Notes under the pieces: generated by a model
The model's input: only the letters and a program-made list of their open reading frames with translations
Told to the model about the DNA's origin: nothing
Database searches by the model: none
Made by a program: the position numbers and the translations under genes
Assembly: GCA_913055805.1 (NCBI GenBank)
Contig: CAJXLF010000002.1
Coordinates: 1-64,000, forward strand
DNA: 64,000 bases
Source: an uncultured Salinisphaerales bacterium
GTDB taxonomy: Bacteria; Pseudomonadota; Gammaproteobacteria; Nevskiales; CAJXLF01
Direction: 5' to 3'
Shown: positions 10,095 to 64,000 of the stretch, in pieces
Layout: every line of letters begins with the position of its first letter
Numbering within the stretch: position 1 is the first letter of the stretch

Positions 10095-10127
10095 GCGGCG
10101 ATTCTAGCCCAAACTGCCGGAACACCG

Positions 10128-10724: not shown

Positions 10725-10727
10725 CTG

Positions 10728-11319: not shown

Positions 11320-11330
<11 letters not shown>
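10728..11330 (-). CDS. ruvC: Holliday junction resolvase RuvC
   Basis: An RNase H-fold endonuclease that cuts Holliday junctions symmetrically. The 200-aa product has catalytic acidic residues in [14 protein letters not shown] (D20), MAVEQVF (Glu) and the C-terminal [13 protein letters not shown] region. The only in-frame start before the core is a TTG at 11330, overlapping the yebC 3' end by 11 bases. This gives a longer, Pro/Ser-rich N-terminus than typical RuvC, so the true start is uncertain. Confidence 0.94.
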
Positions 11331-12060
<730 letters not shown>

Positions 12061-12101
12061 ACGTCAGAAATGCTCAGTGGATTGGGAACGCCAGCCGGAA
12101 T

Positions 12102-13535: not shown

Positions 13536-13542
13536 TGCTGAC

Positions 13543-14784: not shown

Positions 14785-14820
14785 CCCTACTTCCCCGGTA
14801 GTGGTTCGTTGTCTAGGTTG

Positions 14821-44856: not shown

Positions 44857-44886
44857 AACGACTTCAGATCGCAATCAGGTCGTTTT
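44856..44886. terminator. Bidirectional terminator between manB and the kinase genes
   Basis: AAACGAC (44856-44862) pairs with GTCGTTT (44879-44885), giving a 7-bp stem flanked by A- and T-rich ends. It spans the stop codons of the two convergent genes, which lie seven bases apart. Confidence 0.55.
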
Positions 44887-45778: not shown

Positions 45779-46659
45779 GAATTCGCATCCAGCAATGCGA
45801 GTAGTCGGTCTTTCATCTCGGTACAGCGCTGCCAGTGGCGTTGCGCCTCCAGGGTAGTTTTGTCAGCAGAGCTGGCAAAAGAACGGGCACGTTGACCCGC
45901 CTTCATCACATAATGAAACAGCCTGAGATAACCGAGATGTTGATAAATGTAATGATTCTGGGTGCTGGCCAGATAGGCTTCCCAGAAGGCATCAGTGTTG
46001 AGTTCATTGAAATGTGATGTGCCGACGAAAAACTGCCCCATCATTCGATTACGACGGAAGGCCCCCACGTCTATCAACCTGAGAGCACCCTGCTGATCAT
46101 AGACAAAGTTATTACGGGCAATGTCGAAATAATCCAGGCTGCGCTGCAAAACCGGCGGCTCCAGCACCGCATAGAGCTGCCGCGCCTTGCGTGCCTGCTG
46201 CACATCCAGCAGCTTATGTCGCACCAGCGACTTGAGATTGTGGCGGTATTCCAGTCGATAACGAATTTTGGAAATAGGTGAAAAGCGATACTGATGTAAA
46301 CGCGCCATCACCTCACCAAGATCCCGGCTGAATTTTTCAGAACTCACTTTGGGGAAATCCCCCTCAATGAACTCCAGTAACAGGCTATGGTCATCCGCCC
46401 ACAGCATCCTGGGAATAAAGGCCTCGCCCTGGATCGGCTTGATAATCCGCAGCATTTCCCTGATTCGGGCATTGCCACTAGGCACATATAGAAGTTTGTA
46501 CTGCCGGCCGTCTGGCGTCGTCAACTTGCGAACTGAAGGCCTTCTGAGCGAAGGCTGCACATGCTCGCTTTTCTTGCGCAGGTACTCGAGATCAAGAAAT
46601 TCACTCTCGAACTCGTCACCTACTATTTTTCTCCACCCGCCAAATGGTATATCAATCAT
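45775..46659 (-). CDS. WaaP/Kdo-kinase-like sugar kinase (tandem copy 1)
   Basis: A 294-aa paralogue of the next gene. Same plan: N-lobe LTTPDGRQYKLLYVP, LLLEFIEGDFP hinge, catalytic loop SLDYFDIARNNFVY (D179, N184) and metal loop LIDVGA (D197). Sequence divergence between the two is large, so they probably have different acceptors. It follows kpsC by 33 bases, linking it to the Kdo linker or the LPS core. Confidence 0.7.
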   Translation of the reverse strand: MIDIPFGGWRKIVGDEFESEFLDLEYLRKKSEHVQPSLRRPSVRKLTTPDGRQYKLLYVPSGNARIREMLRIIKPIQGEAFIPRMLWADDHSLLLEFIEGDFPKVSSEKFSRDLGEVMARLHQYRFSPISKIRYRLEYRHNLKSLVRHKLLDVQQARKARQLYAVLEPPVLQRSLDYFDIARNNFVYDQQGALRLIDVGAFRRNRMMGQFFVGTSHFNELNTDAFWEAYLASTQNHYIYQHLGYLRLFHYVMKAGQRARSFASSADKTTLEAQRHWQRCTEMKDRLLALLDANS

Positions 46660-46692: not shown

Positions 46693-48801
46693 CTAAGAGT
46701 ACCTGACTATATTAGCCAGTTGCCGAAGCTTGATCGCGCCTCGCTTAAGTACGGTCATTCCCGGCCTGTTCGTGGCACTACCCTGCCGTTTTCGCGCGGC
46801 AAGTACATCAATGGCACTTTCGGTACTCATAAAGTTCCCTGAAGGCCAATGATAATATCTAGGATAGTCAATCAGCACGCCCGCAACCAGTTCATCAATA
46901 ACCAATTTTCTTGTCCGCCTGGGCTGACGAACGTGATCATTCGTCAAACCCCAGCCGGCATAGAAGGGACTGCCATAGGTTGTCACCGGCATTCCGCGCA
47001 ACAATGCTTCGAACCCGGTTAATGAAGTCAAAGTATGGACTTCATCCGCCCAGGCCAGGCATTGCAGAATATCGATATCAGCCACATAGGCGTCACAGAT
47101 GTTTTCAAGATCCGCCACACTGCTTTTACGTTTTCGGTTGCCTGACTCCACGTCCGGATGAGGTTTAAACAGGATAAATGCCTCAGGGTTTTCTTCCCTG
47201 ACCCGGCGAAGCAGGGTCAGGTTGTCCTGGATATCTCCGCCTCCCCTCAGCACCGAAGCATCATCCTCAACCTGTCCCGGCACGAGAATTTTTTTCCTCT
47301 GGCCGGTGGATTCCGGTCCGCGGAAGCGGGAATCAAGCTCCCTTAATAACGCGGCATCGCCCCCAAGGTTGTACTTGCTGATCCCTCGGGACACAATTCG
47401 CTCCCGTATAAGGGCCGCACGTTGCAGCTTCACTTCATCAAAGTCTGCATGCTGCAGCAAACTCTCCAGTTGGCTCGGCCGAGCGGGGTCGTAATAAATG
47501 CCCCCATCGTCAACCACCAGTGAAATGGGCGTCACGAAATCCGAACCAAGTCCGACCGAGCGCAAAAATCCGTCCTCGACCCTGAGCAGCTTTATTTGTT
47601 TCTCGGCACAGTATTCACCCAGATCGCTCGCCTCACGGCTCGACCAGACCACCAGCTTGTCTTCGTGACTTAACCCCTGCTCTTCGGCTTGAGCCAGGTC
47701 GTTACAGAAGCGGATGTCCACATCCGGGCCCTGCAGAAAGGCGCGAATGATGTAGCGCTTCCAATAGCGGAAGCCCAGGCAGAAGTATCGCCCCCGGTTT
47801 CCGTTCAACTGCAGCGAAAAAAAATCGAGAAACTCGTCCAGTTCGCAGGGCCGCCCGGTTACAGGATTGTAATAACGCGCATAACGCAGGTAGGCGGCGG
47901 CAAATACCTCATCCAGAGAACGGACGATACCGCGCCGCTCACAGCTGACACGGTCATCGGTCAAACCCCAGCCTGCGTAGTAAGGCATGCCATGACAGGT
48001 CACGGGTTTGCCCAGCATGAGCGCCTCGAAACCCAGCTGGGAAGTCACAACATGTACATGTTCCATCTGTTCGATCAGGCCCAGGGGATTCATGTCATCA
48101 GCGAGAACTCGCACGCGTTCAGGCAAACTGTTCAGGTCAAAATGCCCGCGCCGTCGCCCCGCCACTACCTGAGGATGTACCTTCAGGTATATGGTTGACT
48201 CCGGATGCTCCAACAGGGCGCACTCCAGCATATGATGGAAGCTGTGTTCATCCGCCAGACCATGCTTGATGGACAAGTCGCCGAATGTCTGGTCAACCAC
48301 CAGCACCTTGGGACCCGCGGGTAACTCCGGTGCCGCCGGTGCATGGTTGTATTTGCTGATTCTGAGCCGGGTTATCCGCTCTCTCAGCGCTCTTGCCAAC
48401 TCCAGCGTCTGCTCATCAAAGCCACCCTCGACAATCAGTTTTTCCAAACGGGAAGGCCGGGTAGCATCGTAATAGATACCCAGATCGTCACAGACTATTG
48501 AAAGGGTTTTGCCCCAGCGGCCCTGCAGCCCGAGAGAACGTATCCAGCCATCTTCCAGGCGAATAAACGGTAATCCACGCCGCCTGGCAAAAGACTCGGC
48601 GAATCTGGATTTCCCCCGATACCCCCAGCCCAGAACGGCATCCAGCTTCCTCAAAGATGGGTGTAACGGCAAATAGTGGGGCGTAACCCCGCCTAACAAG
48701 CCCGACAGGTTGGATTTAAAACGAATGCCCAGTGAAAAGCTGCCGATAGCTGTTGAGCTATCGGCTGGATTATTCTTGGATTGGATTTGTTCCAGCAGCA
48801 T
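46693..48801 (-). CDS. kpsC: Capsule beta-Kdo transferase KpsC
   Basis: A dual-module glycosyltransferase of 702 aa that extends the poly-Kdo linker on phosphatidylglycerol for group 2 capsules. Two homologous halves are visible. Each has an IRLEDGWIRSLGL / LRVEDGFLRSVGL motif, then DDLGIYYDATRPSRLE / DDGGIYYDPARPSQLE, and later a YAGWGLT(D/N)D motif with TSLTGFEALLRG. Length matches KpsC/LpsZ. It lies in the same block as kpsDETM. Confidence 0.93.
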   Translation of the reverse strand: MLLEQIQSKNNPADSSTAIGSFSLGIRFKSNLSGLLGGVTPHYLPLHPSLRKLDAVLGWGYRGKSRFAESFARRRGLPFIRLEDGWIRSLGLQGRWGKTLSIVCDDLGIYYDATRPSRLEKLIVEGGFDEQTLELARALRERITRLRISKYNHAPAAPELPAGPKVLVVDQTFGDLSIKHGLADEHSFHHMLECALLEHPESTIYLKVHPQVVAGRRRGHFDLNSLPERVRVLADDMNPLGLIEQMEHVHVVTSQLGFEALMLGKPVTCHGMPYYAGWGLTDDRVSCERRGIVRSLDEVFAAAYLRYARYYNPVTGRPCELDEFLDFFSLQLNGNRGRYFCLGFRYWKRYIIRAFLQGPDVDIRFCNDLAQAEEQGLSHEDKLVVWSSREASDLGEYCAEKQIKLLRVEDGFLRSVGLGSDFVTPISLVVDDGGIYYDPARPSQLESLLQHADFDEVKLQRAALIRERIVSRGISKYNLGGDAALLRELDSRFRGPESTGQRKKILVPGQVEDDASVLRGGGDIQDNLTLLRRVREENPEAFILFKPHPDVESGNRKRKSSVADLENICDAYVADIDILQCLAWADEVHTLTSLTGFEALLRGMPVTTYGSPFYAGWGLTNDHVRQPRRTRKLVIDELVAGVLIDYPRYYHWPSGNFMSTESAIDVLAARKRQGSATNRPGMTVLKRGAIKLRQLANIVRYS

Positions 48802-49708: not shown

Positions 49709-51418
49709 TTAGATTCTTAGTATTACGCCTGCCGACACGGCAATCTGGTAGATAACCTCAACAAGATCCTTGGTGAACTGGAAGGTCTTGAAGTCCACTT
49801 CGGGCATGATCAGGATCTCATCACCGGCTACCAACGGTCCGCTGTTATTAAACAGGGCATTGGCCTGGTACTGCTCGACCGAACCGTTCTGGTGCATGAT
49901 CAGCACACGCGACTTGTTGGCCTTCTGACTGAAACCGCCCGCCTTGTCGATGTAGTCTTCCGGACTCAGGTTGTTTTCATAGATGAAGGCACTGGGGAAA
50001 TATACTTCGCCGTGCACACTGACCAAGTTGCTCTTCTTGGGCACACGAATGCGGTCGCCATCCTCCAGCGAAACATCCATCTTGTCCGCCGTCTGTGCCA
50101 GAACGACTTGTCCGCGCGGCTGTACCTTCTTGGCCCGTTCAACAAACTGCAAGACCAACTGGGCTTCCTGCGTCCGCAACCCTGCTTCACCCAGAGTTTC
50201 CGAGCGTGCGGATAACACATTGTTTTCCAATGCCCGGAGCGATTGTTCCAGCATGAACTTCTGGCGTTCAGCCAGACTCTTGCGGTAGAGCTGGATGTTA
50301 TCGACATCGGATTGTGGGCTTTTCTGAATCTTTCTGACCAGGTCGCCCAGCTTGGCGCCATAAGGAAGAACATACTCGGCCAGCCCCAGATGCTCGCCTT
50401 CGACCTGGACGATGATCGTACCGACCGTCTTGTCCGCCAGCACAGTGACCTCGTCGCCGGATTGCAGATCGATGGCGTCCGCCTGATCGATGGAGAAATA
50501 TTCGACGTTGCGTTCTGCACCCTGATTACGGGTGACCCGCACATGCGTGGCATTGGGCAATACCCCCACAATGTCCAGCGCTTCATGCAGAGGTAAATCC
50601 CGGGAGACGAACTCCAATCGATATGGGTTCTTGACCAGGCCTGTAAAATTAGCCGTGTTCTTGAGTGGCGCCACAAACAGGGTATCGCCATCGCGAAACT
50701 GGATATTGGGCATACGGCCATTAAGCAGGAAGTCGTACAGATTTACCTGCTGATGAACCCGGCCGCCTCTTAACAGGCGTACATCCAGGTAACTGCCCCG
50801 CTCTGCCGCTATACCCCCGGCCTTATCAAGAAAATGCAGGGCAGAATCGCCGGAAAAGCCTTCATAAAGCCCCGGGCTTTTCACGTTGCCACTGACGAAT
50901 ACCTTGACCTGCTGAGCGGCCGCCAGGCTGGCGTAGATACCCACGTTTTCACGGTAAATGGACTTGATGCGGTCCTCGACGACCCGGTTCAGATCCTCGT
51001 TTCGCACGTTTTGCACATTGATGGGGCCCACACGCGGCACAAAAATATTGCCCTGGACATCAACAGTAAGCGGCGCTTCGAATTCGAAGGCGCCCCATAA
51101 CTTCAAGACAATCGTATCGCCAACATTGATCAGATAGTTGGGATTGAAACCGGTAAAACTCTTGCCAGCGAACTTGCCATCGAACAGCCACTCGCCGAAT
51201 ACCCCTGCCCGATCCGGCTTGGTTTGGACGACCTGGGGTTGTTCTGCCTGGTTGGGAGGCAAATTCCGTTCCTGCGCGCTGATATCCAGATCATTCGGGC
51301 GCTGAATTTCAGTTTGCAGTGGTGGCAGTCTGGACTCGAATTCAGTTTGGGCCATCAAAGGGCAGGTAACCACCAGCAAAACAGACAGGAAAACCCATTG
51401 AAACAGTCGCTTAATCAC
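49709..51418 (-). CDS. kpsD: Capsule export outer-membrane/periplasmic protein KpsD
   Basis: A Wza-like polysaccharide export (OPX) protein, 569 aa, with a signal peptide (1-23, ending PLMA). The poly-export domain is marked by NPNYLINVGDTIVLKLWG and the following FVPRVGPINVQNV, then several SLBB domains with repeated DGDRIRVPK and GDEVTV motifs. It forms the periplasm and outer-membrane conduit with KpsE. The start is GTG 51418 with a GAGG ribosome site, overlapping kpsE by eight bases. Confidence 0.92.
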   Translation of the reverse strand: MIKRLFQWVFLSVLLVVTCPLMAQTEFESRLPPLQTEIQRPNDLDISAQERNLPPNQAEQPQVVQTKPDRAGVFGEWLFDGKFAGKSFTGFNPNYLINVGDTIVLKLWGAFEFEAPLTVDVQGNIFVPRVGPINVQNVRNEDLNRVVEDRIKSIYRENVGIYASLAAAQQVKVFVSGNVKSPGLYEGFSGDSALHFLDKAGGIAAERGSYLDVRLLRGGRVHQQVNLYDFLLNGRMPNIQFRDGDTLFVAPLKNTANFTGLVKNPYRLEFVSRDLPLHEALDIVGVLPNATHVRVTRNQGAERNVEYFSIDQADAIDLQSGDEVTVLADKTVGTIIVQVEGEHLGLAEYVLPYGAKLGDLVRKIQKSPQSDVDNIQLYRKSLAERQKFMLEQSLRALENNVLSARSETLGEAGLRTQEAQLVLQFVERAKKVQPRGQVVLAQTADKMDVSLEDGDRIRVPKKSNLVSVHGEVYFPSAFIYENNLSPEDYIDKAGGFSQKANKSRVLIMHQNGSVEQYQANALFNNSGPLVAGDEILIMPEVDFKTFQFTKDLVEVIYQIAVSAGVILRI

Positions 51419-52511
51419 GATGATCCTCTATCGTGGCAATGGCAAGGCGAGCGATACCATACAGCAAGAGCAGTAGGGCAGCTAAACTACTAAGTATATA
51501 GAAGCGACGTGGATAAAGTGCTTCCTGGGGAAGGTTGGGAGGAGAAATGACTACAAGATATTTAACTTTTTTAGACGCATCTAGCCTGGCGTTCTCTAAC
51601 GATTTAAGCGCTGATTGATAAATACTTAACGCGAACTGCACGTCCTGTTGTGCATCTTGGTAAGCAATCGAGGCCTCGTTTAATGCTTGCACCTCCCTTC
51701 TTCCCTTGCCCGTTTGCCTTTGTCTTTCTGTTGCCAACTGGTTCTCTAATGCACTGATACGGGCTTTTAAGGACACTATTTCCGGAGCCTTAGGGTTGAG
51801 AAAGCTTTGTAATTGCTTTAGTTGAGTTTTTTGTATGGCTAATTCCGATTCCAGAACACCAATAACTTCAGTTAAGGTCGCCGCCTCTGTTTCAGGAGTG
51901 AGTAAATCGTATCTATTCTGGATCTTAATTAGTTCCTGATTTGCCTCGTTGACTCTAGTCTCAGCCTCGCCGACTTGCCACTCCATAAATTTAGTCTGTT
52001 CGCGCCCGAGATTTTGGCCAATTTCGTTAACAAAATCCTCGCTCTTGTGAAGAATATCTTGCGCTATCTGTTGTGCTTCTTCGGGGCTAAACGCTTTGAC
52101 TTTAAGAGTAACTACTGAAGATAGATCTTCGACTTCCACTTCTACAAAATCTTGATAGTAGTCAAAAAAAGATTCCATTGATGCGTTGGGGTCAAGCCGA
52201 GCATAGAAATCAATTGATTTATTTGAGTAATGCGATTTGATATCTAGCTTAGATTGTAGGTGGGTCAACATTCCCATGGACTCAATAAGGTTGCGAATCA
52301 GCATGGAATCGTAGTTCGAAACAGCTGTGCCCGTGACCGCTGCTATAACGCCCAAATCCAGTCCACCGAGATCAGTTTCCTTATCTTTCTGTATGACAAA
52401 TTGCGCCTCACTAACATAGATGTCGGAAGCAAAGAAATATAAGTAAACTCCAACCACTAAAAGAGGTACGGCGAAAAAATAAAGAATGCGATTTTTACGC
52501 AGAGAACTCAT
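51411..52511 (-). CDS. kpsE: Capsule export inner-membrane protein KpsE
   Basis: A polysaccharide co-polymerase/adaptor family protein, 366 aa, with membrane helices near both ends (about 10-28 and 335-355) and a long periplasmic coiled coil (about 160-290). The N-terminal FYFFASDIYVSEAQFVIQ segment is typical. Start ATG 52511 overlaps the kpsT stop by one base; a TTG lies just before it. From here the DNA becomes AT-rich. Confidence 0.92.
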   Translation of the reverse strand: MSSLRKNRILYFFAVPLLVVGVYLYFFASDIYVSEAQFVIQKDKETDLGGLDLGVIAAVTGTAVSNYDSMLIRNLIESMGMLTHLQSKLDIKSHYSNKSIDFYARLDPNASMESFFDYYQDFVEVEVEDLSSVVTLKVKAFSPEEAQQIAQDILHKSEDFVNEIGQNLGREQTKFMEWQVGEAETRVNEANQELIKIQNRYDLLTPETEAATLTEVIGVLESELAIQKTQLKQLQSFLNPKAPEIVSLKARISALENQLATERQRQTGKGRREVQALNEASIAYQDAQQDVQFALSIYQSALKSLENARLDASKKVKYLVVISPPNLPQEALYPRRFYILSSLAALLLLLYGIARLAIATIEDHRD

Positions 52512-53173
52512 CAACCTTCCGCCTTTAAGTAAGTAGATATAGCATCTTTGATGTCATCAAAATAATAAGCCTGCCCATTACGTAGATAAACGCCTACATC
52601 ACATTCATGCTCTTGTAGTTTCATATTGTGGGAAACTAGAATCACAGTCGCTTTACCACGTTTTTCAGAAAAGGCCTTCTGTGCTTTTTGGCGAAATTTT
52701 TGATCGCCAACTGAAATCAATTCATCAATTAAATAATAGTCATATTCAAATGCCATACTTATTGCAAATTTGAGGCGGGCACCCATACCTGATGAATAAC
52801 TGGATATAGGCATATCGAAAAACTCTCCTAGTTCGGAAAATTCTGCGATGTATTCCAACCTATCAGCCATGGTTTTTTTATCGTCCCCATGAACACGGCA
52901 CACAAATTTTGCGTTGTCGCGCCCTGATAATTGCTTAGCGAAGCCTCCAGCCATGCCAAAGGGTGGAGAGATATTCTCATTGTGAAGAATTACTCCGCTA
53001 TTAGGTGTCTCTATGCCACCTATCATTCTGAGTAATGTCGTTTTGCCGGACCCATTCCGCCCTAGGAGACCGATGTTCTTACCCTCTGGAAACTCCATGG
53101 TGACATTGTTGAGGATATATTTCTTACCTTTTAACGTCCTGTAATATTTTGTGACATTCTCCAGCTTAATCAT
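52511..53173 (-). CDS. kpsT: Capsule ABC transporter ATPase KpsT
   Basis: A 220-aa ABC ATPase with Walker A GRNGSGKTTLLR, signature-like SSYSSGMGARLKFAIS and Walker B-like YDYYLIDELISVGD, the degenerate forms characteristic of KpsT. It energises export of the lipid-linked capsule through KpsM. It overlaps kpsM by eight bases. Confidence 0.95.
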   Translation of the reverse strand: MIKLENVTKYYRTLKGKKYILNNVTMEFPEGKNIGLLGRNGSGKTTLLRMIGGIETPNSGVILHNENISPPFGMAGGFAKQLSGRDNAKFVCRVHGDDKKTMADRLEYIAEFSELGEFFDMPISSYSSGMGARLKFAISMAFEYDYYLIDELISVGDQKFRQKAQKAFSEKRGKATVILVSHNMKLQEHECDVGVYLRNGQAYYFDDIKDAISTYLKAEG

Positions 53174-53954
53174 GTGGCCTCATCAATCTGGATAAACTTG
53201 CACGATATGCGGTTAACGCCAATATGGTTGTGCTGATCGTAAAGCCGATCAAATATTCCCAACTGGCAGGAGAATCATAGGTTGGTATGAATGCGTCTTT
53301 AAGAAAATCCAACGCATGTAGTAAAGGGTTCCACAGCAAGTAGATTCGCGCTTCTTCCGGCAGCATCTCAATGGTAAAAAAAACGCCCGATATAAAGTAC
53401 ATGGGCCGTTGAGTTACACGAATAAACTTTCGTGTTTCCTTATAAATTGTTCCACAAACTGCGGCGAGCAGGCCTGCATTAAACGATAAAATACTGAGTA
53501 AAATAAAGATGCCAATGACTTCTAATATATTAGGCATAGGAACTATATAACCAAGCCAAGAACACCCCATTAGAAAAAGCGTAAAAGTCACAACATGGAT
53601 GACTATTTCAATAATGGTCCGAGCGAGAATAGTGTCCAAGGGCTTCACTTGTCTATGATCAAACAAACCCTGGTTTGATTTGATCGCATCCATACATTTA
53701 GTCAACACGTTTCGATAAAGAAAAAAAGGAATAATTCCTAATATTACGAAGACAGGGGCTTCAATATGCCCATAAAACTGTCTCTGACGAATGGTGCTAA
53801 ACATGAAGGACAAAATAGCCACATGTGCTAGTGGCTCCAAAATGGCCCATGCATATCCTAAGTGATATTCTCCGAAACGAGTCTTGAGTTCGCGCATCAT
53901 AAGCGCAAAGACAACACGACGATTTAGCACGAATGAAGCTTTAAAAGTCGTCAT
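53166..53954 (-). CDS. kpsM: Capsule ABC transporter permease KpsM
   Basis: An ABC-2 type permease of 262 aa with six membrane helices and the family stretch LKTRFGEYHLGYAWAILEPLAH near the N-terminus. With KpsT it moves the finished polysaccharide across the inner membrane. Start ATG 53954; the preceding TTG at 53957 is less likely. Confidence 0.95.
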   Translation of the reverse strand: MTTFKASFVLNRRVVFALMMRELKTRFGEYHLGYAWAILEPLAHVAILSFMFSTIRQRQFYGHIEAPVFVILGIIPFFLYRNVLTKCMDAIKSNQGLFDHRQVKPLDTILARTIIEIVIHVVTFTLFLMGCSWLGYIVPMPNILEVIGIFILLSILSFNAGLLAAVCGTIYKETRKFIRVTQRPMYFISGVFFTIEMLPEEARIYLLWNPLLHALDFLKDAFIPTYDSPASWEYLIGFTISTTILALTAYRASLSRLMRPHD

Positions 53955-53996
53955 CAATTTTTCAGCTTTGAATAAAAAGCAACCAATAAAAAAACA

Positions 53997-54596
53997 TTAT
54001 GGACGGAATAACTCTATCCACCCATGCTTCGCCCATGTTTCTAGCAATTCAACCTCTTTTAGTGGCGAATGAGGGCCAGGGCGCACGCACCCTTCATACC
54101 AAGTTTCAGAATTCCAGCCATCAAAGCCAAACGTTTTAATTGAATTAGAACCCCCAAGTTTGAGCAAGAGATGTAATACCATTAAACCTGTAGAGGGTTC
54201 TACTTTCCTCTGTTCATCAGTTGTCGTCTCGTTTAATGTATCAGCTAATTGCTTCCACCACTGAATGGGATAAAAGAAAAGACGACTTTTTGCATCTTCT
54301 CCAAGGCCTTTTCTAAGTTTATGCGTCATCCAAACTACGTAATTTGTCACCTCGAAAAGGTCACTTGTATAGAAGCCTGAAATGGCTATTATCGTGGTCT
54401 TCTTTCCTGAGTTTTCCGGCCTCTCAGGCCCTTGAAGATAGCCAAGGTTCATCCGCACCACAACATCAAAATCGTCTATAGAATTTGAATAATACTTGCT
54501 ATCTGACGCATTGCCGACTACAGCCACGTTCTTTTGCCAAATTAAATCCTGCAACTTTCGTAAATGATCGGCAGAGGAAGTCAAAGCAAAGACCAT
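53997..54596 (-). CDS. GT29 sialyltransferase-like protein
   Basis: A 199-aa protein whose layout matches eukaryote-type sialyltransferases (GT29) in compact form. An L-sialylmotif-like segment (24-50) contains VAVVGNASDS and FDVVVRMN. An S-motif-like segment (about 132-149) contains EPSTGLMVLHLLL followed by FGFDG. A final H176-x4-E181 matches the VS motif. No membrane anchor, so it is cytoplasmic. The donor could be CMP-sialic acid or CMP-Kdo; no sialic acid synthesis genes are in the window. It overlaps the upstream gene by 16 bases. Confidence 0.6.
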   Translation of the reverse strand: MVFALTSSADHLRKLQDLIWQKNVAVVGNASDSKYYSNSIDDFDVVVRMNLGYLQGPERPENSGKKTTIIAISGFYTSDLFEVTNYVVWMTHKLRKGLGEDAKSRLFFYPIQWWKQLADTLNETTTDEQRKVEPSTGLMVLHLLLKLGGSNSIKTFGFDGWNSETWYEGCVRPGPHSPLKEVELLETWAKHGWIELFRP

Positions 54597-55387
54597 CGCG
54601 GCAAATCATCAACCCATGAAAATAATTCAGAAAAAACACCAGAATTACGTTCTGCCCAGCGCATTGCATTCTGAATCTGATGTGGGTGTTCACATACGGG
54701 TATTGGAAAACCGGAAGTTTTTAAAAAACCTTCTATCTTATGGCTATTTCCTTTCAGAGCAACAAATGGCACGTGAGCCTTGCATGCAGCCATTACAGCG
54801 TGGTGCCTACCCGTAACAACCAAAGATGACGTTTTCATAGTGTTAACTAATTGAGACCAATTAACTTTAGACATGTCAATGTAGTTTGATTTTGCCAAAG
54901 GGCCACCTGTAATTTTCACAAAAGATTTAAATTCACTTGAGAAAAAGTCAGTCACCAGTCGCCTGCCCTTTAGATCCTTATAGCTTTCGTTTATATCTAT
55001 TTTCGCTTGCAAAGATAAATCAGGACAGACAACGCTATCGACATTATGATTCAGCAGCAGATCATCGCGACTCATGACCTCACGAACCTGTATCTTATCT
55101 AGCGCTTTCAGTGTTGAGTCATGAGTATGGTTATTCTTTTCCCAAAGTGAATTAATCAGAATACCCGATTTTCCAAGGTTTAAAGCATTGGTAAGGGATG
55201 TCATTTTATCCCGCCAAGGGCGTGATGAGTGATGCATGGAACCCTCACCATTGACTAGTATCAGATCGAAATTCTCATCATCTACTAGCTGCCAATTCAA
55301 TGCTTCCAGGTGGTCCCGAATAACGGAAACTACTGCGGCACAACCACAATGGTAGGCTGAGTGATCCCCTATAAGCTTAACTTTCAT
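54581..55387 (-). CDS. Polysaccharide pyruvyl transferase family protein
   Basis: A 268-aa protein of the pyruvyltransferase fold (CsaB/WcaK type): an early DFDLILVNGEGSMHHSS motif, a central VCPDLSLQ stretch and a late TGRHHAVMAACKAHVPFVALKGNSHKIEGFL region, all typical of PF04230 proteins. It would add ketal-linked pyruvate from phosphoenolpyruvate to a sugar. ATG 55387 gives MKVKLIGDHSAYHCGC, where the early Cys/His and Gly are expected. The frame is open to 55405. Confidence 0.7.
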   Translation of the reverse strand: MKVKLIGDHSAYHCGCAAVVSVIRDHLEALNWQLVDDENFDLILVNGEGSMHHSSRPWRDKMTSLTNALNLGKSGILINSLWEKNNHTHDSTLKALDKIQVREVMSRDDLLLNHNVDSVVCPDLSLQAKIDINESYKDLKGRRLVTDFFSSEFKSFVKITGGPLAKSNYIDMSKVNWSQLVNTMKTSSLVVTGRHHAVMAACKAHVPFVALKGNSHKIEGFLKTSGFPIPVCEHPHQIQNAMRWAERNSGVFSELFSWVDDLPRWSLL

Positions 55388-55429
55388 ACTGCACCTGGTA
55401 GCCACTCACTTAACAACACACTTGCAAGG

Positions 55430-57280
55430 TTACAAATACTCTTTGTACGCATCTTCTAACGCTGCAATTGACAGTAGTTTCGGCGTTAGGGGATTTTCAA
55501 AGTTGAGTGTGTCGTTATTAATAGCGTCACAGAATTTTCTCACATTAATAAACTCGTTTATCAATTTAGAAGACATGATCATTTCTAATACTTCTGCTTT
55601 GTTCTCAGTGAGGAATGTTTGAACTTGCCAACGGAAACCTTGCTTTTGTCTTCGCCACTGAGTCGGCAAAGGTTTAAATTTTGAAAACACCCTTCTTAAC
55701 TCGTACTTATTCCATTGGCCAAAAAACTTCTCTCGATAGTTCGTGCTCATGAATTTCGTTAACCTAAAGTCCAGAAAAGGGCTTCTATTTTCCACACCGT
55801 ACATCATGGCGTTACTATCGTTCTGCGCCAGCCACACTCCTAGCCGACCTTCAAACGCATCTTTGACAAGGGCAGTTTGCAAATTCATTTCCGTCGCATC
55901 TAGTGGATCAATAATTCTTTTAATTAAACAATTTTCACTTTTATATTGATCTGCAACTGGGCAGATACTCTTTTTTGCACCACCTTCGATGCCACTTCTA
56001 ATTAATCTTGATAAAAGTTTAATGTCGGCATTCTCTGATCGGAGAGATGCCAGCCACTCCTCATCATCCCTGGTAACAGCATCATGAATTGCCATCTTGA
56101 GATATCGATCCCAATAGCCACCGAAAACCTCATCCGCTCCAGTACCGTCTAAAACGACCGGCACATCTTCTTTGGAAATTTCTTCATACATGCTTGTCAT
56201 CGCATTTGCATTACCAGATAGTGGCATAGGCCTACCGAAGTGAATGTGCTGTTTAAGGTACCTTTCAAAAGCCTCATTCTGATATTGCAGCTTTACAGTA
56301 GTAGCTTCGACATTCAGGGCTTTAACGACCTCTTGTGCATACCACGCATCTTCAGATTTTCCCGTGTCACCGATATAAATTCTTATCTGATCCTGCAAAT
56401 CCAGTTGCACAAGAGCATTTAATATTAACGAGCTGTCAATTCCCCCAGATAGTAAAAGGCCTATAGGCCGGTCAGCTCTAGCTCTGAGCGAGACTGCGTC
56501 TAAAATCAGATATTGCAATTCTTCTTGTTCAAATGAGTCGGCCCCATTTGCTTTTAACTCATCTTCTGGAGTGTAGTAACGCTTTTCATTTATAGACCAG
56601 GTATTCGGGTCGAACACCAAGTAGTGAGAAGGGCTAACTTGCTTGATTTCATTCAGGAAGCTGTTGCCCGCGCCTAAATTAATGTAGTTATCATAAAAAA
56701 TGAACGACGATGTTAGTTCTCTGTTAAAGCTAACCTTCTCATCAATATAATGCAGAATTGGTGCAATTTCTGATGAAATGCACAGCACCGACTCGCCAAT
56801 GTAATAATAAAGTGGCTTTTTACCATATCTATCTCTCGATGAAATTAAAGTTTTACTTTTATTGTCCCAGAACGAGAAGGCCCACATGCCATTAACATAA
56901 TTAAGGAAATCTGTGCCATATTTCATCAATCCTGCCAATAAGACTTCTGTGTCACCGGTTGATTGAAAGCACACATCACTCAACAAATTATTTTTTAATT
57001 CGACAAAATTATATATTTCACCATTAAAGGAAATGACTGATCCTTCTGGTGCCATAAGAGGTTGATTAGATTTGGCGCCTAAGTCTCTGATTTTTAACCT
57101 TGTGTGCGCCAAACTGATGTGTATTTTTTTTGACTTCAACCATCCATTCTTGAAATTTTCAGATTTGATTAAATAGTCGTCAAAGTCTGGGCCTCTATGC
57201 TTGAGCATTCTCATGCTTTTTTTAAGTTTATCGGTAAAGATTGGCTTATCCCGTTGCACTACAACAAATACACCACACAT
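55430..57280 (-). CDS. asnB: Asparagine synthase-like glutamine amidotransferase
   Basis: A 616-aa class II glutamine amidotransferase fused to a synthetase domain. The catalytic Cys is C2 (MCGVF), and SFNGEIYNFVELK supports the glutaminase half. The PP-loop is LLLSGGIDSSL in the second half, and MYGVENRSPFLDFRL follows. Within a capsule locus such proteins usually amidate a uronic acid or amino acid on the glycan rather than make free asparagine (inference). Confidence 0.8.
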   Translation of the reverse strand: MCGVFVVVQRDKPIFTDKLKKSMRMLKHRGPDFDDYLIKSENFKNGWLKSKKIHISLAHTRLKIRDLGAKSNQPLMAPEGSVISFNGEIYNFVELKNNLLSDVCFQSTGDTEVLLAGLMKYGTDFLNYVNGMWAFSFWDNKSKTLISSRDRYGKKPLYYYIGESVLCISSEIAPILHYIDEKVSFNRELTSSFIFYDNYINLGAGNSFLNEIKQVSPSHYLVFDPNTWSINEKRYYTPEDELKANGADSFEQEELQYLILDAVSLRARADRPIGLLLSGGIDSSLILNALVQLDLQDQIRIYIGDTGKSEDAWYAQEVVKALNVEATTVKLQYQNEAFERYLKQHIHFGRPMPLSGNANAMTSMYEEISKEDVPVVLDGTGADEVFGGYWDRYLKMAIHDAVTRDDEEWLASLRSENADIKLLSRLIRSGIEGGAKKSICPVADQYKSENCLIKRIIDPLDATEMNLQTALVKDAFEGRLGVWLAQNDSNAMMYGVENRSPFLDFRLTKFMSTNYREKFFGQWNKYELRRVFSKFKPLPTQWRRQKQGFRWQVQTFLTENKAEVLEMIMSSKLINEFINVRKFCDAINNDTLNFENPLTPKLLSIAALEDAYKEYL

Positions 57281-57439: not shown

Positions 57440-57462
57440 AATAAAATAAGCTCGTGGGAGCT
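57440..57462 (-). terminator. Intrinsic terminator after the sulfotransferase gene
   Basis: On the minus strand AGCTC-CCAC-GAGCT (57449-57462) is followed by TATTTTATTTTTATG. The first arm includes the stop codon region. The 180-base gap downstream to asnB (57281-57460) may hold a separate promoter, but none is clear. Confidence 0.5.
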
Positions 57463-58219
57463 ATGTGCTTTTCATAAATTCTATTTGCTTATAAAATTGC
57501 TTTAGTCCTACTTTATATAAATTAATGTCAAGTATATTATTCTTCTTAATCAAAACTAAGTCATCGGGATCAATATCTTTCTTTGATTTTTTTCGCTTCG
57601 TAACGTTCTTGGTTTCAGATACGTCAAGCTCATAACCTAAAGCCCATTCAAAATATTTAATTGATTCATCGTAACCCTCAACAATGCCTATATTAGATTT
57701 TTCAATAATAGATTTTGATCTATTGTAAGCAGATTGCATTGGGGAATAATTTCCAAAAAACATATTGGATAGCCATCTAGTTTGAAAGTTCTGCATATAC
57801 CAAACAACCGGAAAACCCGCCCTGGTTACATTTGGTTTTGTATACACTTCCCTTATTGAAAAATACTTGTCCAGAGAAAAATAATAGTAATGTGAAAGCG
57901 CCCTTTCTATCGGGTCTCTCAAAAAGAGTATATTAAATACTCTTCGATTAGATATTTCGTGAATACCAAAGGGCTGATGTCCTTCAATGAATCTTATCTT
58001 GGATTTTTCTTCTTCAGTCAGAGCAAAAATTTTTTCCATGCTATGCCAATATCCCGTCCAAGGGATCGGCAGAATTTCTTGGCGCGTAAAATACTTTCTA
58101 AGGGCGGGCTTAAAAGTGGTTCCCGCTGTTTTAGGTATATGGTTGAATACTAATAAATCCTCTTTCTGATGGTAAGAGGTTTCAATAAACGTACACAACT
58201 TTGCTATTGATTCTTGCAT
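57461..58219 (-). CDS. Sulfotransferase family protein
   Basis: A 252-aa PAPS-dependent sulfotransferase of the Sulfotransfer_2 type. The 5'-phosphosulfate loop is HIPKTAGTTF (27-36) and the 3'-phosphate binding motif is LRDPIERALSHYYY. A basic C-terminal patch (KRKKSKK) may bind the polysaccharide. It suggests that the capsule or LPS is sulfated. Typical enzymes of this group modify glycosaminoglycans. Confidence 0.8.
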   Translation of the reverse strand: MQESIAKLCTFIETSYHQKEDLLVFNHIPKTAGTTFKPALRKYFTRQEILPIPWTGYWHSMEKIFALTEEEKSKIRFIEGHQPFGIHEISNRRVFNILFLRDPIERALSHYYYFSLDKYFSIREVYTKPNVTRAGFPVVWYMQNFQTRWLSNMFFGNYSPMQSAYNRSKSIIEKSNIGIVEGYDESIKYFEWALGYELDVSETKNVTKRKKSKKDIDPDDLVLIKKNNILDINLYKVGLKQFYKQIEFMKST

Positions 58220-58273: not shown

Positions 58274-61200
58274 TTAGTATTTGATTCTAAAATACACTTT
58301 TCCGACACTGATAGTGATAAGTTCTAAAATTCTGCCCAGTATGTGATTACCGTACAAATGCCTAAATAATCTTTTCCAAGCTGATTTTCCATCAGCAAAG
58401 AAAGCATAGGGTTTAGTCAAGAATTTCTCAAGCAACCTTATTCCTTTTGATCGAATAATAACATTTGAACTCGCACTAGAACCAAGCAATGTTTCTGCGC
58501 CTGCCCTCCACCAACTCATACTAATGTAGAGATGTTTTTTGACTTTCGGAGCTAAAAATATCTCAGGATGAATCAGATATCTTTCCTTAGATCCACCATA
58601 GGCATCAACAAAGCTTACATCCTTGACGATGTTTATATCCTCAGTACACGGTGTCTCGATAAAATCTCTGTAAAGCGCCATAGTGGCCTCAGGCTCTATC
58701 ACCTCCCGCCACGCATCTTCTCTCAGAATGCCCCAAATATCGTTTATAAAGTCATTGATACCCGATTCGATTTGTGAGGCCACATTTCTCCTAACTGATT
58801 CATCCCCTTCTACAAATTCTTCCAGCGCTTCAGATCCCTCCTCTTCGCTTCTCTTGGCAAGCCTTATCCTCTGAAAGCTAGGCTTATCTGGAATGAATAA
58901 AAATTCAAACATGCCAATATTTTTACAATAAAAATGTTCGGAATTAATGTGATCTTCGAAGCTCAGCAGGTAAGACTTAACTGGCAGATTGTTATTTACT
59001 AGTTTCAAGGCACCTTCAAATGTTGAAAAGTAATACCCCCCTATCTCCACACCGGTTAGCTTTGATAATGCAAGTTGCAATGTGCCATTGTGCCCAATAT
59101 CAACTATGGCGATTCGACCTTCCTTGAAAACGCCCTCGTCAGTTAAATATTTAACATAGGCATCCCGTTCATGTTCCGCGTTCTTCAAAACCGCCGCTTC
59201 TTTCTTTTTCAAAAGTTTCGTCAGTCTGGCTATGTCATCTGCGTTTTTGCTTGTAACAAGATCATGCCCAGAGGAGAATCCAGCGTCTTCCCAATCCTCT
59301 TGGGCCAGCAGCGCCGAATCCAATCCAAAACGATCCTGAAGGATCACTGAAGCTTCGACAGGAGAAAATCCCATTTCGAGGGTACTTTCAATGTCATCCC
59401 AATTCTTTAGCGAAGGGATAATACACCCACGTCTGGATGCGAGAAGGTAGTGTGCCTCAGGGGCATTAACCAGATTCTGGGTAAATACGTCGTAGGCAGT
59501 TTTGGGGTACCACCCGTCCCTAGCTAGAAAATACACGCGGTCGACTTTATCTCGAACCAGTTCTCTAATGAGCCAGGCAACAAAGCCGGCAATGATTGGA
59601 CCGCCTGCAGCGTAGCCCAGATTTATAGCACTGCCTGAGAAAAGCGATTTACTTGAACGAGATATATTTGATGTGCCGAAAAGACGATTCGATACCAGTC
59701 CTTGCCAAGTCGAAATCCAATGCATAGATCCAGGGTTATTGCCAATACGCTTCCATGCACGATGGTAGTACGGATTGGCGTACATCGACTCGATGGACTT
59801 TGGAATTAATATTGACCGTATACCTAATTTTTTGGGTATTGAATAATCAGAAACTGCGTTATCACCGATATGCAGCAAATTGGAAGAACGAATGCCCCTG
59901 TCTGAAAGTATATGCTTGAATAAATTTCCGGTTTTCTTCAGAAGCTTTAATTCTGAAGAAAGGTATAACTTTTCATAGCCCTGTATATTATTTTTACGCA
60001 ACATCAAGTCAACAATATCTGAATCTAGATACATGTCTGATGTAAGTATTATCTCCTTGTTCCGGGCCCTTGCGTATTCATATAGCTGGGATATGGAGCC
60101 ACGAAGTTTCGTATGCCTAATTTCCAGATCAGACTCTATTTTTCTTAACTTAACGGCCACTTCTTTACTCACTCCAAGAGTTTTTCGCATGCCGTTATAG
60201 ATATCTCTGAGGGTAATATCTTCTTGATCATTATTTTTCGCCTGTTCAAGAAGATTTCTTGCTGTCCTCTTCCTAAGCTCGTAGTATTCCTCACTATTGA
60301 TATCGTGATGGACATTTCTCCAGAGATAGTCCGTCGCACGTGTCGAACTCTCGCGCAACAAATCATCCGGACTGGAGTAATCTCTAACAAGTAAAGTGTC
60401 AAAAATGTCGAACGATATACACTTTGCCCTATCTATTTCCTTCCTTATTTTCTTTTTAGTGACAGATTTAACAGACGAAGGTCTGTAGTGAGTAACTTCT
60501 CGCCCGGCCTTGTTCAGTCCGTTTGTCCCGCTGCTACCCGGTACTAACAACCTCTCAAGCAAGCGTTCCTGCTTATTATCAATTTCAAGCAAAGCTTCTG
60601 TATTTGGGCGGCTTGCTTGATATTGAATTGTATTTTCCAGACATCGTTCAAGATACCCCCCCTCATATAAATACGATTTCGTCAGTGGATAATAGTGATT
60701 TAGTAAATAGTAAATCTTGTCATCATTAACGAGGTTGATATCAAGGAAACTTGAAGTAAATTCTTGTATTTCAGTGGTAGTGGCCAGCGGATTTAAGTGG
60801 GACTTTCCAATTACGCATAATGGCTTGTTAAGGAAAAATGCTTGAAGGCCTAATGATGAAGAAACAGTAATAACCCCATCCACAACACTCATAAGATACT
60901 GAGATACCCAAGCGGTATCTCGAAATTTGTAATCATAAATGAGGTTGGGGAAGTTCTTCTTCAGCCATGCGTAATTTCCTTTGTTAATGACAGGTTGTGC
61001 CGGATGCTCTGTAACCAATACGCCAATATCCGAAGGCACCTGAGATAACACCCAGCAAAGAAAATCAAATTGACTGGAGAAACTGATCCCTTCTGGAAGG
61101 CAGGCGTCAAAGGCAAAATAATTAGATACCTGCAGAGGTAGCAATACCGTTTTTTCAAATCCTTTACAAAGTTTATCTTTTTGAAATGGATTTGAGCTTT

Positions 61201-61798
61201 CGATTATTCCATTGAAATATTTTTGTCGCAGGTTGTCACAGAAAACTCTTTCCTTTTCACCTACATGGAGACTCGAAAATTTTTCTTTACCAAACTTTGC
61301 CAACCAAGAGTTAGAAAATATACCGACCGGATCCAGGCAGAACGTTTCTGGGTATGGAGGCCTGGAAAATATTCCCAGAGTTGAACTCAATATTGGTATA
61401 TCTTTGTACAAAAGCCTGAGTGTCGTATCAGAGGCTGATTCGTAACAAACCATTACCGAAGGCTTGAAATCACCAATTACAGGACTAAGAATCTCATCAA
61501 ATTGCCTCAATTGCTGCTGAGTTGATTCTCCGCGAAACAAGGACAGAGACGCAGGAAAATAAGATGGGAAAACTTTCAGTAAATCTGCCTGCTTAATGGT
61601 GTAAAGAGAAACCCCCTCAGGTATCAGACTTTCACGTTCGGCTTCATTCGCTACTGCCTCTCCCAAGACAATACCCACAGCATGCCCGGCTTTCAGAAGA
61701 CAGTTCATCTCATGACGCAGGTGATTGCGTATTGTTCCCAGTCTGAATAGCGGACGGTCCAGCTCAACCCATGGCTCTAAGTAATATAAAACGTTCAT
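58274..61798 (-). CDS. 1174-aa fusion: capsule-transferase-like, HAD and C-terminal domains
   Basis: Three blocks are visible. Residues about 1-400 resemble KpsS/KpsC-like or CDP-glycerol-type capsule transferases (TEHPAQP, then VDGVITVSSSLGLQAFFLNKPLCVIGKS). Residues about 455-690 form a HAD-type domain with DIFDTLL (D464, D467), ILTSDMYLDSD and LHIGDNAVSDY, the last giving the terminal Asp motif. Residues about 720-1120 hold a conserved-looking module starting VYFLARDGWYPKTAYDVF and with IVDIGHNGTLQLAL, of unknown role, also seen fused to HAD domains in glycan loci. No membrane segment. The gene is AT-rich. Confidence 0.6.
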   Translation of the reverse strand: MNVLYYLEPWVELDRPLFRLGTIRNHLRHEMNCLLKAGHAVGIVLGEAVANEAERESLIPEGVSLYTIKQADLLKVFPSYFPASLSLFRGESTQQQLRQFDEILSPVIGDFKPSVMVCYESASDTTLRLLYKDIPILSSTLGIFSRPPYPETFCLDPVGIFSNSWLAKFGKEKFSSLHVGEKERVFCDNLRQKYFNGIIESSNPFQKDKLCKGFEKTVLLPLQVSNYFAFDACLPEGISFSSQFDFLCWVLSQVPSDIGVLVTEHPAQPVINKGNYAWLKKNFPNLIYDYKFRDTAWVSQYLMSVVDGVITVSSSLGLQAFFLNKPLCVIGKSHLNPLATTTEIQEFTSSFLDINLVNDDKIYYLLNHYYPLTKSYLYEGGYLERCLENTIQYQASRPNTEALLEIDNKQERLLERLLVPGSSGTNGLNKAGREVTHYRPSSVKSVTKKKIRKEIDRAKCISFDIFDTLLVRDYSSPDDLLRESSTRATDYLWRNVHHDINSEEYYELRKRTARNLLEQAKNNDQEDITLRDIYNGMRKTLGVSKEVAVKLRKIESDLEIRHTKLRGSISQLYEYARARNKEIILTSDMYLDSDIVDLMLRKNNIQGYEKLYLSSELKLLKKTGNLFKHILSDRGIRSSNLLHIGDNAVSDYSIPKKLGIRSILIPKSIESMYANPYYHRAWKRIGNNPGSMHWISTWQGLVSNRLFGTSNISRSSKSLFSGSAINLGYAAGGPIIAGFVAWLIRELVRDKVDRVYFLARDGWYPKTAYDVFTQNLVNAPEAHYLLASRRGCIIPSLKNWDDIESTLEMGFSPVEASVILQDRFGLDSALLAQEDWEDAGFSSGHDLVTSKNADDIARLTKLLKKKEAAVLKNAEHERDAYVKYLTDEGVFKEGRIAIVDIGHNGTLQLALSKLTGVEIGGYYFSTFEGALKLVNNNLPVKSYLLSFEDHINSEHFYCKNIGMFEFLFIPDKPSFQRIRLAKRSEEEGSEALEEFVEGDESVRRNVASQIESGINDFINDIWGILREDAWREVIEPEATMALYRDFIETPCTEDINIVKDVSFVDAYGGSKERYLIHPEIFLAPKVKKHLYISMSWWRAGAETLLGSSASSNVIIRSKGIRLLEKFLTKPYAFFADGKSAWKRLFRHLYGNHILGRILELITISVGKVYFRIKY

Positions 61799-61801
61799 TT
61801 T

Positions 61802-62743
61802 TTACTTGATGGCATCTACATATAGAGACATATCAGGATCCGTCTTATCGAATAACCTAAGGTCACGAAGTGGTACCGCAAGACTTTGGCCATACGATGA
61901 TCGTACAGATTCACTAAAACCTGCTTCTTCCAAAAACGAAATAACCTTGTTCGTGTTGAACCAATTGACATGCCGTCCTAGCTCAACATTAAGGTCACGG
62001 TCAGAAAGCTCCGAAGCATGGTCTAAGGCGTCATACGGAGTTTGAAATCTTTCGAAGAAACTATCGGCCTGGCCTGGTGTGATGTTTACTCGATTTTTAG
62101 GGTGAGTAATAAGTGAAAACTGATCCAACAGAAAAAAGGAGGTGCGAGATTGCGCCAACTGTATGTAATGCTTGAATTCTCTCTTCTTCTCTATTTTCCA
62201 ATAGTAAGAAGCAAGGTAGCACCAATCCTTCCTGACCCATGAGTTGACAGCCAAATCAGCGTCTGGCGTTACAAGCCTCAGAATTCCTCCTGACTTAAGG
62301 ACTCTGCAAACCTCCCTTAATAAATGACGCACATCGTTATTCCAAATATGCTCAATAACGTGGCTGCAATAGACCAATTCGATACTGTTATCAGCCAAAG
62401 GGAGTTCACCTCCCTGCAGAATGTCCCAATCAATATCAATTGAGCTACTGTATTGGTGACTTCTGGACTCTGCCCAAGTTTTGTTATCAAGAAATTTCTT
62501 GTCGGAGTTCGTCCAATACTTGTGCCTGAAACTTCCCGGGCCAATATTCAAAAATCGTTTGTTCTCAAGAGAATCAGAAGGATACAGCTCTCTGTATACA
62601 TGCTCATAAAATCGAGACTGTTTGGTCGAATACACCGAGTTAGCTGCTTCCTTCCTCGCTATTTTTTCTAATAAATCTTTATCGTTCATTATCTTCTTAT
62701 ATTTTTCCTCCTCCATAACCTCATATGTTTTTTTGTCAGACAT
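61802..62743 (-). CDS. SAM-dependent methyltransferase in the capsule locus
   Basis: A 313-aa protein with a class I methyltransferase domain at about 65-200: FLNIGPGSFRH (motif I-like), then LPLADNSIELVYCSHVIEHI and the post-motif LKSGGILRLVTPDADL. It has a helical N-terminal extension. ATG 62743 is preferred over the longer frame to 62776. It ends three bases before the large fusion gene begins. Probably methylates a sugar of the capsule. Confidence 0.75.
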   Translation of the reverse strand: MSDKKTYEVMEEEKYKKIMNDKDLLEKIARKEAANSVYSTKQSRFYEHVYRELYPSDSLENKRFLNIGPGSFRHKYWTNSDKKFLDNKTWAESRSHQYSSSIDIDWDILQGGELPLADNSIELVYCSHVIEHIWNNDVRHLLREVCRVLKSGGILRLVTPDADLAVNSWVRKDWCYLASYYWKIEKKREFKHYIQLAQSRTSFFLLDQFSLITHPKNRVNITPGQADSFFERFQTPYDALDHASELSDRDLNVELGRHVNWFNTNKVISFLEEAGFSESVRSSYGQSLAVPLRDLRLFDKTDPDMSLYVDAIK

Positions 62744-62785
62744 AAATATCACCTGAAATATAGAATTGTCAGCCAAGCTCTACTC

Positions 62786-64000
62786 TTAGCCCTTGGCCAG
62801 AAATTTCCCTAATTTTTGTATCGGCTTGAATCGGGTATCAACCATGGATTGCACTGGTGTCCTCTTGAACTTTAAAAATTTTCTCACCGTCTTCTCGGGG
62901 ACTACGCGTAGCAAAAACGCGATCAATGAGATTTTAAGTTGTTGTATAAAACCCGTATCAAATCTAATAGGCCGTAAAGCATATTCAGCTGCCTTTTCAG
63001 ACTCCAGTTGGTTGATTTCCAGATCGAGAATTCTAAAGTGAGCTTCCCAAGACGGTAACTCAGGCACTTCTTTGGTTGAAATAGATTCGTGAGCTGCTTG
63101 AAGAATTGTTTTCTTCCAGCTATTGGCGTCCAGAGGATCAATGAATGTGGGCAGATCTTTGCCGCTTTCCCTGAACACATCAAGATCACTGCATATAACT
63201 GGTACTTTTAGCGAGAGGGCTTCAATCAGCGGCATCCCCCACCCTTCGACAAAACTTGGAAAAAGTAGTCCCTTACTGCCTTTCAGCAACTGAACAAGCT
63301 GATGGTCACTGATATCCGATAACTCAACAACGTGTGGCTTTGTTTTTTCACAGCGATCCAGCATGTCGATGATGTTCTCGTTGCACCAGCCACGCTTGCC
63401 GATAACAACCAACTTGGGAATATTCTCAATGCCCTCCTCCACAAAGCTTCGCCAGATATTCAACAACAACAGGTGGTTCTTGCGAGGCTCAATGGTACCC
63501 AGCACCACGAAATAATCCTGTCCCGCTAAGTTGATGTCGTAAGGCTCATTTTCGGCACCGGATAAGTCTAATGGCTCTACGCCGATGTACAAAGGAATCA
63601 CCTTGGGCTGGGGTAACCCTTTCTCCCTTGCGTATTGCAATACTTCTTTTTGCGTATGATTCGAATTAACAATCACCAGCTTGGAAAAATTCAGAGCCCC
63701 ATTGATACGGTCAACGTGCCTTGCGGTCTCTCCCTCACGCGTATATTCCGGGTGAGTAATCGGGATCAGGTCATGAATGAAAGAAATAACCTCGCATCCC
63801 AGATTGTGTTTCAGTGCCCATAGAAATGCCTCATCGTTGATGCCCTGGTGAGCCACATTGATATAGATGTATCTCTCTTGCCTGTTTTTCGCCAGCTCAA
63901 GAAAATGGCCGGTAAACAAAGTTCTGCCTACCGGACTTTTCGACACGTAGAGCTTTTCGTTTTTCTGCAGGCTGACGTAATTGCTAATTGACTGTTTTTC
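62786..64000 (-). CDS. Glycosyltransferase family 4, N-terminus cut by window end
   Basis: A GT-B fold glycosyltransferase. The frame is open through 64000 without a stop, so the true start lies outside the window; the first internal GTG at 63946 is probably not the start. C-terminal hallmark motifs are YFVVLGTIEPRKNHLLLLN and FPSFVEGWGMPLIEALSLKVPVICSDL, containing the E-x7-E nucleotide-sugar site. An unusual long tail follows (about the last 100 residues). Likely adds a sugar to the capsule repeat. Confidence 0.85.
   Translation of the reverse strand, partial: EKQSISNYVSLQKNEKLYVSKSPVGRTLFTGHFLELAKNRQERYIYINVAHQGINDEAFLWALKHNLGCEVISFIHDLIPITHPEYTREGETARHVDRINGALNFSKLVIVNSNHTQKEVLQYAREKGLPQPKVIPLYIGVEPLDLSGAENEPYDINLAGQDYFVVLGTIEPRKNHLLLLNIWRSFVEEGIENIPKLVVIGKRGWCNENIIDMLDRCEKTKPHVVELSDISDHQLVQLLKGSKGLLFPSFVEGWGMPLIEALSLKVPVICSDLDVFRESGKDLPTFIDPLDANSWKKTILQAAHESISTKEVPELPSWEAHFRILDLEINQLESEKAAEYALRPIRFDTGFIQQLKISLIAFLLRVVPEKTVRKFLKFKRTPVQSMVDTRFKPIQKLGKFLAKG

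Follow-up and report, generated by a model that had tools for sequence, protein, structure and literature searches.

A kps-type capsule operon and its GT29 gene

The window, meaning the whole 64,000-nucleotide stretch of DNA that was analysed, carries a kps-type ABC-exporter capsule operon that runs past its end. All genes of the operon lie on the minus strand, and the last gene of its variable part encodes a 199-residue protein of glycosyltransferase family GT29. The genes are given below in order of transcription; one further methyltransferase gene stands between the last two entries.

65473-66729 (window-equivalent, beyond the window), minus strand: KpsS
64250-65428 (window-equivalent; L021:251-1429), minus strand: KrkA-like GT140 relative, 250 bp past the window (phmmer 4.3e-26)
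62786-63946, minus strand: GT4-type glycosyltransferase (PF00534, 59.5 bits)
61802-62776, minus strand: SAM methyltransferase (PF08241, 42.6 bits)
58274-61798, minus strand: 1174-aa HAD/ribofuranosyltransferase-like protein (phmmer, Bcs3 3.3e-25, 7shg 1e-20)
57461-58219, minus strand: sulfotransferase-like protein (PF03567, 38.7 bits, cut-off 22)
55430-57280, minus strand: asparagine synthase-like amidotransferase (TIGR01536, 295 bits, cut-off 267)
54581-55405, minus strand: polysaccharide pyruvyl transferase-like protein, 274 aa (PF04230, 36 bits, cut-off 25.3)
53997-54596, minus strand: GT29 family glycosyltransferase, 199 aa, soluble (ATG at 54596, stop at 53997)
53166-53957, minus strand: KpsM-like ABC capsule exporter permease (NF050053, E 1.9e-46; PF01061)
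52511-53173, minus strand: KpsT-like ABC exporter ATPase (polysaccharide-export ABC ATPase families)
51411-52514, minus strand: KpsE-like inner-membrane export protein (TIGR01010, E 5.3e-90)
49709-51418, minus strand: KpsD/Wza-like polysaccharide export protein (polysaccharide export families, about 1e-13)
46693-48801, minus strand: KpsC-like dual Kdo-linker transferase (phmmer, 6mgb 2.5e-77, 6mgd 2.1e-69; PF05159, 302 bits)

The GT29 reading frame starts 16 bp inside the upstream pyruvyl transferase-like gene, and kpsM begins 39 bp after its end, all three on the same strand. In the variable part, GC content is down to 0.34-0.46 from about 0.50-0.55, a drop that is usual for exchanged capsule genes. 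KpsC matches the solved Kdo transferases over both of its halves (6mgb, 6mgd). Two adjacent APH-type kinases (44864-46659) adjoin the operon.

Family assignment and predicted fold

GT29 comprises, to our knowledge, every sialyltransferase known from animals, and its eukaryotic members have been proposed to descend from the bacterial ones. An earlier note on this DNA, made from the sequence alone, had reported sialylmotifs L, S and VS in the GT29 order at 53997-54596, and this observation is confirmed; the note named no strand, and the reading frame lies on the minus strand. Motif L is represented by VVGN (residues 26-29), SIDD (39-42) and FDVVVRMN (RMN being 48-50), motif S by PSTG (134-137) and FGFD (156-159), and motif VS by H176-SPLK-E181 (H-x4-E), whose histidine, the predicted catalytic base, is encoded at 54069-54071. 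Between S and VS, at the place expected for motif III (type H/Y-Y-x-E/D/Q), stands the motif-III-like T165-W166-Y167-E168, which the earlier note did not mention; T165 and Y167 are kept in near relatives, and the histidines of the animal-type motif are absent. An alignment of 16 relatives holds twelve invariant positions (G28, I40, D41, R48, N50, G64, G137, G157, F158, D159, H176 and E181), which are the signature residues of motifs L, S and VS. The reported lack of a membrane anchor also held up, as inspection found no hydrophobic stretch at the N-terminus. There is no cysteine pair, C170 being the sole cysteine. Since both the type II membrane anchor of the animal enzymes and the disulfide cysteine pair of their L and S motifs are absent, the protein is not an animal-type sialyltransferase, and in this it is like other bacterial GT29s (PMC5811610).

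Profile comparisons lead to the same family. The protein scores 32.3 bits (E = 9e-8) with PF00777, whose curated cut-off is 23; no NCBIfam model matched it. A profile built from the alignment of 16 relatives was searched against all PDB sequences and placed porcine ST3Gal-I first (1.6e-14), with a match over almost the whole length, followed by ST6Gal1, ST6GalNAc2 and ST8SiaIII, and then by the GT42 enzyme CstII (9e-4 to about 1e-3). In that search nothing outside GT29 and GT42 rose above noise, the one other row standing at 0.75. The profile alignment sets PSTG on the PSTG of ST3Gal-I, the FGFD region on its YGFG, and H176 on its H319 (chain numbering taken as offset by 45).

Structure prediction against sialyltransferases, the check proposed in the earlier note, points the same way. 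An AF2 model, computed from the window sequence and the locus sequences of relatives with the plasmid-derived row left out, reached a pLDDT of 82.8 and a pTM of 0.84. Its first 26 Foldseek matches are all GT29 proteins, and it aligns with ST3Gal-I (2wnb) at Z 14.2 over 177 residues (VIA). GT42 (Cst-I/CstII), MptE/HPPK (8sd5) and SteA folds rank next, at Z about 9.5-11, and unrelated folds stay below 5. The predicted fold is thus the GT-A variant sialyltransferase fold. Membership in GT29 is firm, because the PF00777 match, the profile search, the predicted fold and the residue mapping agree. Fold, motif order and the position of the catalytic histidine are shared with porcine ST3Gal-I, which differs in its larger domain, membrane anchor, disulfides and CMP-Neu5Ac donor, the identity being about 23%.

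Sugar chemistry of the operon and the candidate donor

Two neighbours of the GT29 gene indicate what the operon may build. In E. coli K13, KrkA joins a retaining GT-B Kdo transferase (GT140) to a ribosyltransferase and makes a Ribf-Kdo chain; its QxxxD Gln and Asp (the Asp being the nucleophile), YE general base and HP motif are catalytic or CMP-binding (PMC12887879). Aligned to KrkA, the KrkA-like neighbour reads GQTSTD, GYE and KKHP against GQTLND, GYE and SRHP, so that it retains the GT140 features, namely the QxxxD Gln and Asp, YE and the HP motif. Its match to the polysialyltransferase model PF07388 is weak (19.9 bits, cut-off 23.3). The 1174-aa protein consists of an N-terminal part that is weakly Capsule_synth-like (PF05159, 19.8 bits, just below the cut-off of 20), a HAD phosphatase and a phosphoribosyltransferase-like region. 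It resembles Bcs3 and the ribofuranosyltransferase of structure 7shg, and so a ribofuranosyltransferase-phosphatase of the kind known for E. coli K13-type Ribf-Kdo capsules (PMC12887879). By analogy with KrkA it may combine a ribosyltransferase with a second Kdo transferase; its N-terminal 430 residues have no sequence match to any solved Kdo transferase. The product of the operon is probably a ribofuranose/Kdo-type chain, assembled on the KpsC/KpsS Kdo linker and exported via KpsMT-E-D.

CMP-ulosonate synthetases of the KdsB, NeuA and PseF types fall in PF02348. The only clear CMP-sugar synthetases in the genome are KdsB (C2:99799) and PseF (C7:171609), with one more match below the cut-off. 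CMP-Kdo and CMP-pseudaminate are therefore the available donors, unless a synthetase gene lies in the missing part of the genome (completeness 95.7%), where it would escape the search. The earlier claim that CMP-sialate genes are absent is true of the window but fails for the genome: PseB, PseC, PseF, PseG and PseI all exceed their NCBIfam cut-offs on another contig (C7), giving a complete CMP-pseudaminic acid pathway, none of whose genes lies in the capsule operon. In this cluster (L020, G000:C7:160000-176567), positions 9440-16450 hold two formyltransferase-like genes at the place expected for PseH, together with PseI and a PIG-L type deacetylase, and its product may be formylated pseudaminic acid.

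For the 199-residue protein, the sequence evidence tips the balance slightly towards CMP-Kdo as donor, because the operon carries KpsC, a GT140 relative of KrkA and a ribofuranosyltransferase-like protein, and because GT29 precedents for Kdo exist. Arabidopsis RCKT1/MGP2, a GT29 member, is required for Kdo in pectin according to genetic and chemical evidence (PMC11288761). The E. coli K6 capsule cluster encodes a GT29-GT107 protein proposed to use CMP-Kdo, and the mass spectra of this capsule fit poly-Kdo (PMC13171606). The earlier note's interpretation is, as a whole, partly supported, and its proposal of CMP-Kdo is stronger than the note alone had made it, given the GT140 relative, the ribofuranosyltransferase-phosphatase module and these precedents; the donor is deduced, and CMP-pseudaminate is a real rival.

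In ST3Gal-I and ST6Gal1, CMP is held by motifs L and S, the VS histidine acts as general base and the configuration at C2 is inverted. As we infer its activity, donor, linkage and acceptor, the GT29 protein would be a compact, cytoplasmic, metal-independent, inverting glycosyltransferase whose motifs L and S form the cleft for its donor, a CMP-activated ulosonic acid. H176 would deprotonate the acceptor hydroxyl, and CMP-beta-Kdo supplied by the KdsB of the genome would, with inversion at C2, yield a capsular polysaccharide that carries alpha-linked Kdo. The acceptor, the least supported step, would probably be the Ribf/Kdo chain as it grows, or a branch of it. Taken as a whole, the reading of the protein as an inverting CMP-Kdo transferase that works on a ribose/Kdo-type capsule is given marginally better than even chances.

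The GT140 enzyme and the ribosyltransferase could together complete a disaccharide repeat, so the GT29 protein may supply a third residue or add a branch or cap. The chain could also be complete without it, leaving it a side-branch role or none. That an inverting alpha-Kdo GT29 and a retaining beta-Kdo GT140 in one operon produce a capsule with both Kdo anomers is a tentative suggestion, to which we give rather less than an even chance. We know of no enzyme that has been pinned down for inverting Kdo transfer in capsules. Alpha-Kdo capsules such as K16 and K74 need an inverting Kdo transferase (PMC13171606), for which the GT29 protein, if the reading with both anomers is true, would be a concrete candidate. 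It also bears on the enzymes behind alpha-linked Kdo in capsules.

The strongest competing reading is that the GT29 protein uses CMP-pseudaminic acid, possibly formylated, from the C7 cluster and decorates or terminates the capsule with it. The full PseB/C/F/G/I set and the two formyltransferase-like genes speak for this, as do GT29-like proteins inside the Pse clusters of two genomes (G402 and G310) and beside the NeuB gene of a third (G009). However, the pseudaminate genes stand on a separate contig and may serve another glycan, for instance that of flagella, whereas the capsule operon holds Kdo enzymes and no Pse gene. The Pse-cluster GT29s are also long (514-537 aa) and without clear S and VS motifs, and genome G113, with a GT29 gene and KdsB but no NeuB, argues against pseudaminate as a general rule. 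We regard this reading as unlikely, though worth keeping in view. In the Pse-cluster proteins themselves (L018:8516-10129 and L019:8843-10387), the GT29-like domain is C-terminal, with degenerate S and VS motifs, and they are possibly pseudaminyl transferases. NeuB occurs in 7 of 9 genomes that carry a GT29 relative, compared with 148 of the 369 class genomes; within the class sample it occurs in 3 of the 5 genomes with GT29 by Pfam search. This co-occurrence was dropped as a test of the donor since the numbers are too small and not independent.

It is improbable, more so than pseudaminate transfer, that the protein has the GT29 fold and does not transfer a CMP-ulosonate, either using another donor or serving as a non-catalytic capsule accessory. 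Its 199 residues face a Pfam model of 272 positions, its motif III is unlike that of the animal enzymes, and GALT29A, a GT29 protein of Arabidopsis, has reportedly been tied to the transfer of galactose (PMC4234293). Yet all invariant or near-invariant residues of the 16 relatives are kept, including H176, E181, N29, N50, S135 and G137, and the full-length model covers the sialyltransferase core. The proposal that the protein is not a GT29 member at all, being instead MptE-like/DUF115 (6-hydroxymethylpterin diphosphokinase fold) or GT42, draws on HPPK (8sd5) and Cst-I/CstII as the next structural neighbours (Z about 11) and is very improbable, since PF01973 (MptE-like) gave no match at E up to 1, PF00777 is matched above its cut-off, and the profile prefers GT29 over GT42 by ten orders of magnitude (1.6e-14 for ST3Gal-I, 9e-4 for CstII).

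Relatives and known systems

Relatives of the 199-residue protein are scattered. A scan of 84,980 species genomes yielded none with the single sequence as query and one, in Ramlibacter terrae (39% identity), with an alignment of three. Others are encoded on a Desulfolutivibrio plasmid (37%) and in the proteobacterium G416 (about 30%), with further relatives in genomes of the same order and on 17 phage contigs; most relatives also match PF00777. Profile searches of the class sample found a GT29-like gene in 8 of 369 genomes, the source genome included. A six-frame Pfam search of the source genome itself missed the GT29 gene, although the protein scan matches PF00777, so that low Pfam counts in genomes are to be taken as minimum values. 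In G416 (L013:237-2019), a pyruvyl transferase-like gene lies directly upstream of the compact GT29 gene, as in the window. With two cases only, and the two PF04230 proteins barely alike, no claim of a conserved pair is made.

A 2018 study reported bacterial GT29 sequences that have neither an anchor nor a conserved cysteine pair and placed them at the base of the family (PMC5811610). These sequences, among them marine proteobacterial examples, carry motifs L, S, III and VS; the window protein has L, S and VS and a motif-III-like stretch. Their function could not be predicted there, whereas the window gene lies in a ribose/Kdo-type capsule operon. The K6 system, likened here by its description, also has a GT29 domain in a kps-type capsule cluster. 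There, however, the domain is fused to GT107 in a cluster without ribofuranosyltransferase domains (PMC13171606), while the window GT29 is a stand-alone protein whose neighbours in the operon include a GT140-like enzyme and a ribosyltransferase-phosphatase. Like the system of KrkA in K13 (PMC12887879), the operon has a ribosyltransferase-phosphatase, and it encodes a homologue of KrkA's Kdo-transferase module. KrkA, however, unites a retaining GT-B enzyme with its ribosyltransferase, whereas the window GT29 is encoded on its own and belongs to a family of inverting enzymes. RCKT1/MGP2 differs as a Golgi membrane protein acting on rhamnogalacturonan-II, with no in vitro activity shown (PMC11288761).

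Given the 2018 sequences, the K6 protein and compact phage GT29s, the rarity suggested in the earlier note was overstated. The 199-residue protein is not unique, since GT29s are already known from bacteria and phages; it is a well-supported addition to the known bacterial group and, as a sequence find, ordinary. The literature searched gave no bacterial GT29 whose activity has been tested. Being compact, soluble and set in an operon whose sugar chemistry is clearly predicted, the protein offers a tractable way into the function of bacterial GT29s, and it bears on whether Kdo transfer is an old GT29 activity shared with plants.

The compact GT29s of phage contigs are 177-216 aa long, and most of those tested exceed the Pfam cut-off. 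No PHROGs family matched any of six proteins (the 199-residue protein and five phage GT29s), and the phage records gave no match for the 199-residue protein. On the phage contigs (L029-L045), several compact GT29 genes adjoin methyltransferase and other sugar genes. One phage protein of 1021 aa (L033/L034:3493-6558), surrounded by phage genes, joins an MptE-like part, a nucleotide-sugar transferase and a methyltransferase to a C-terminal GT29 with 31% identity to the window protein.
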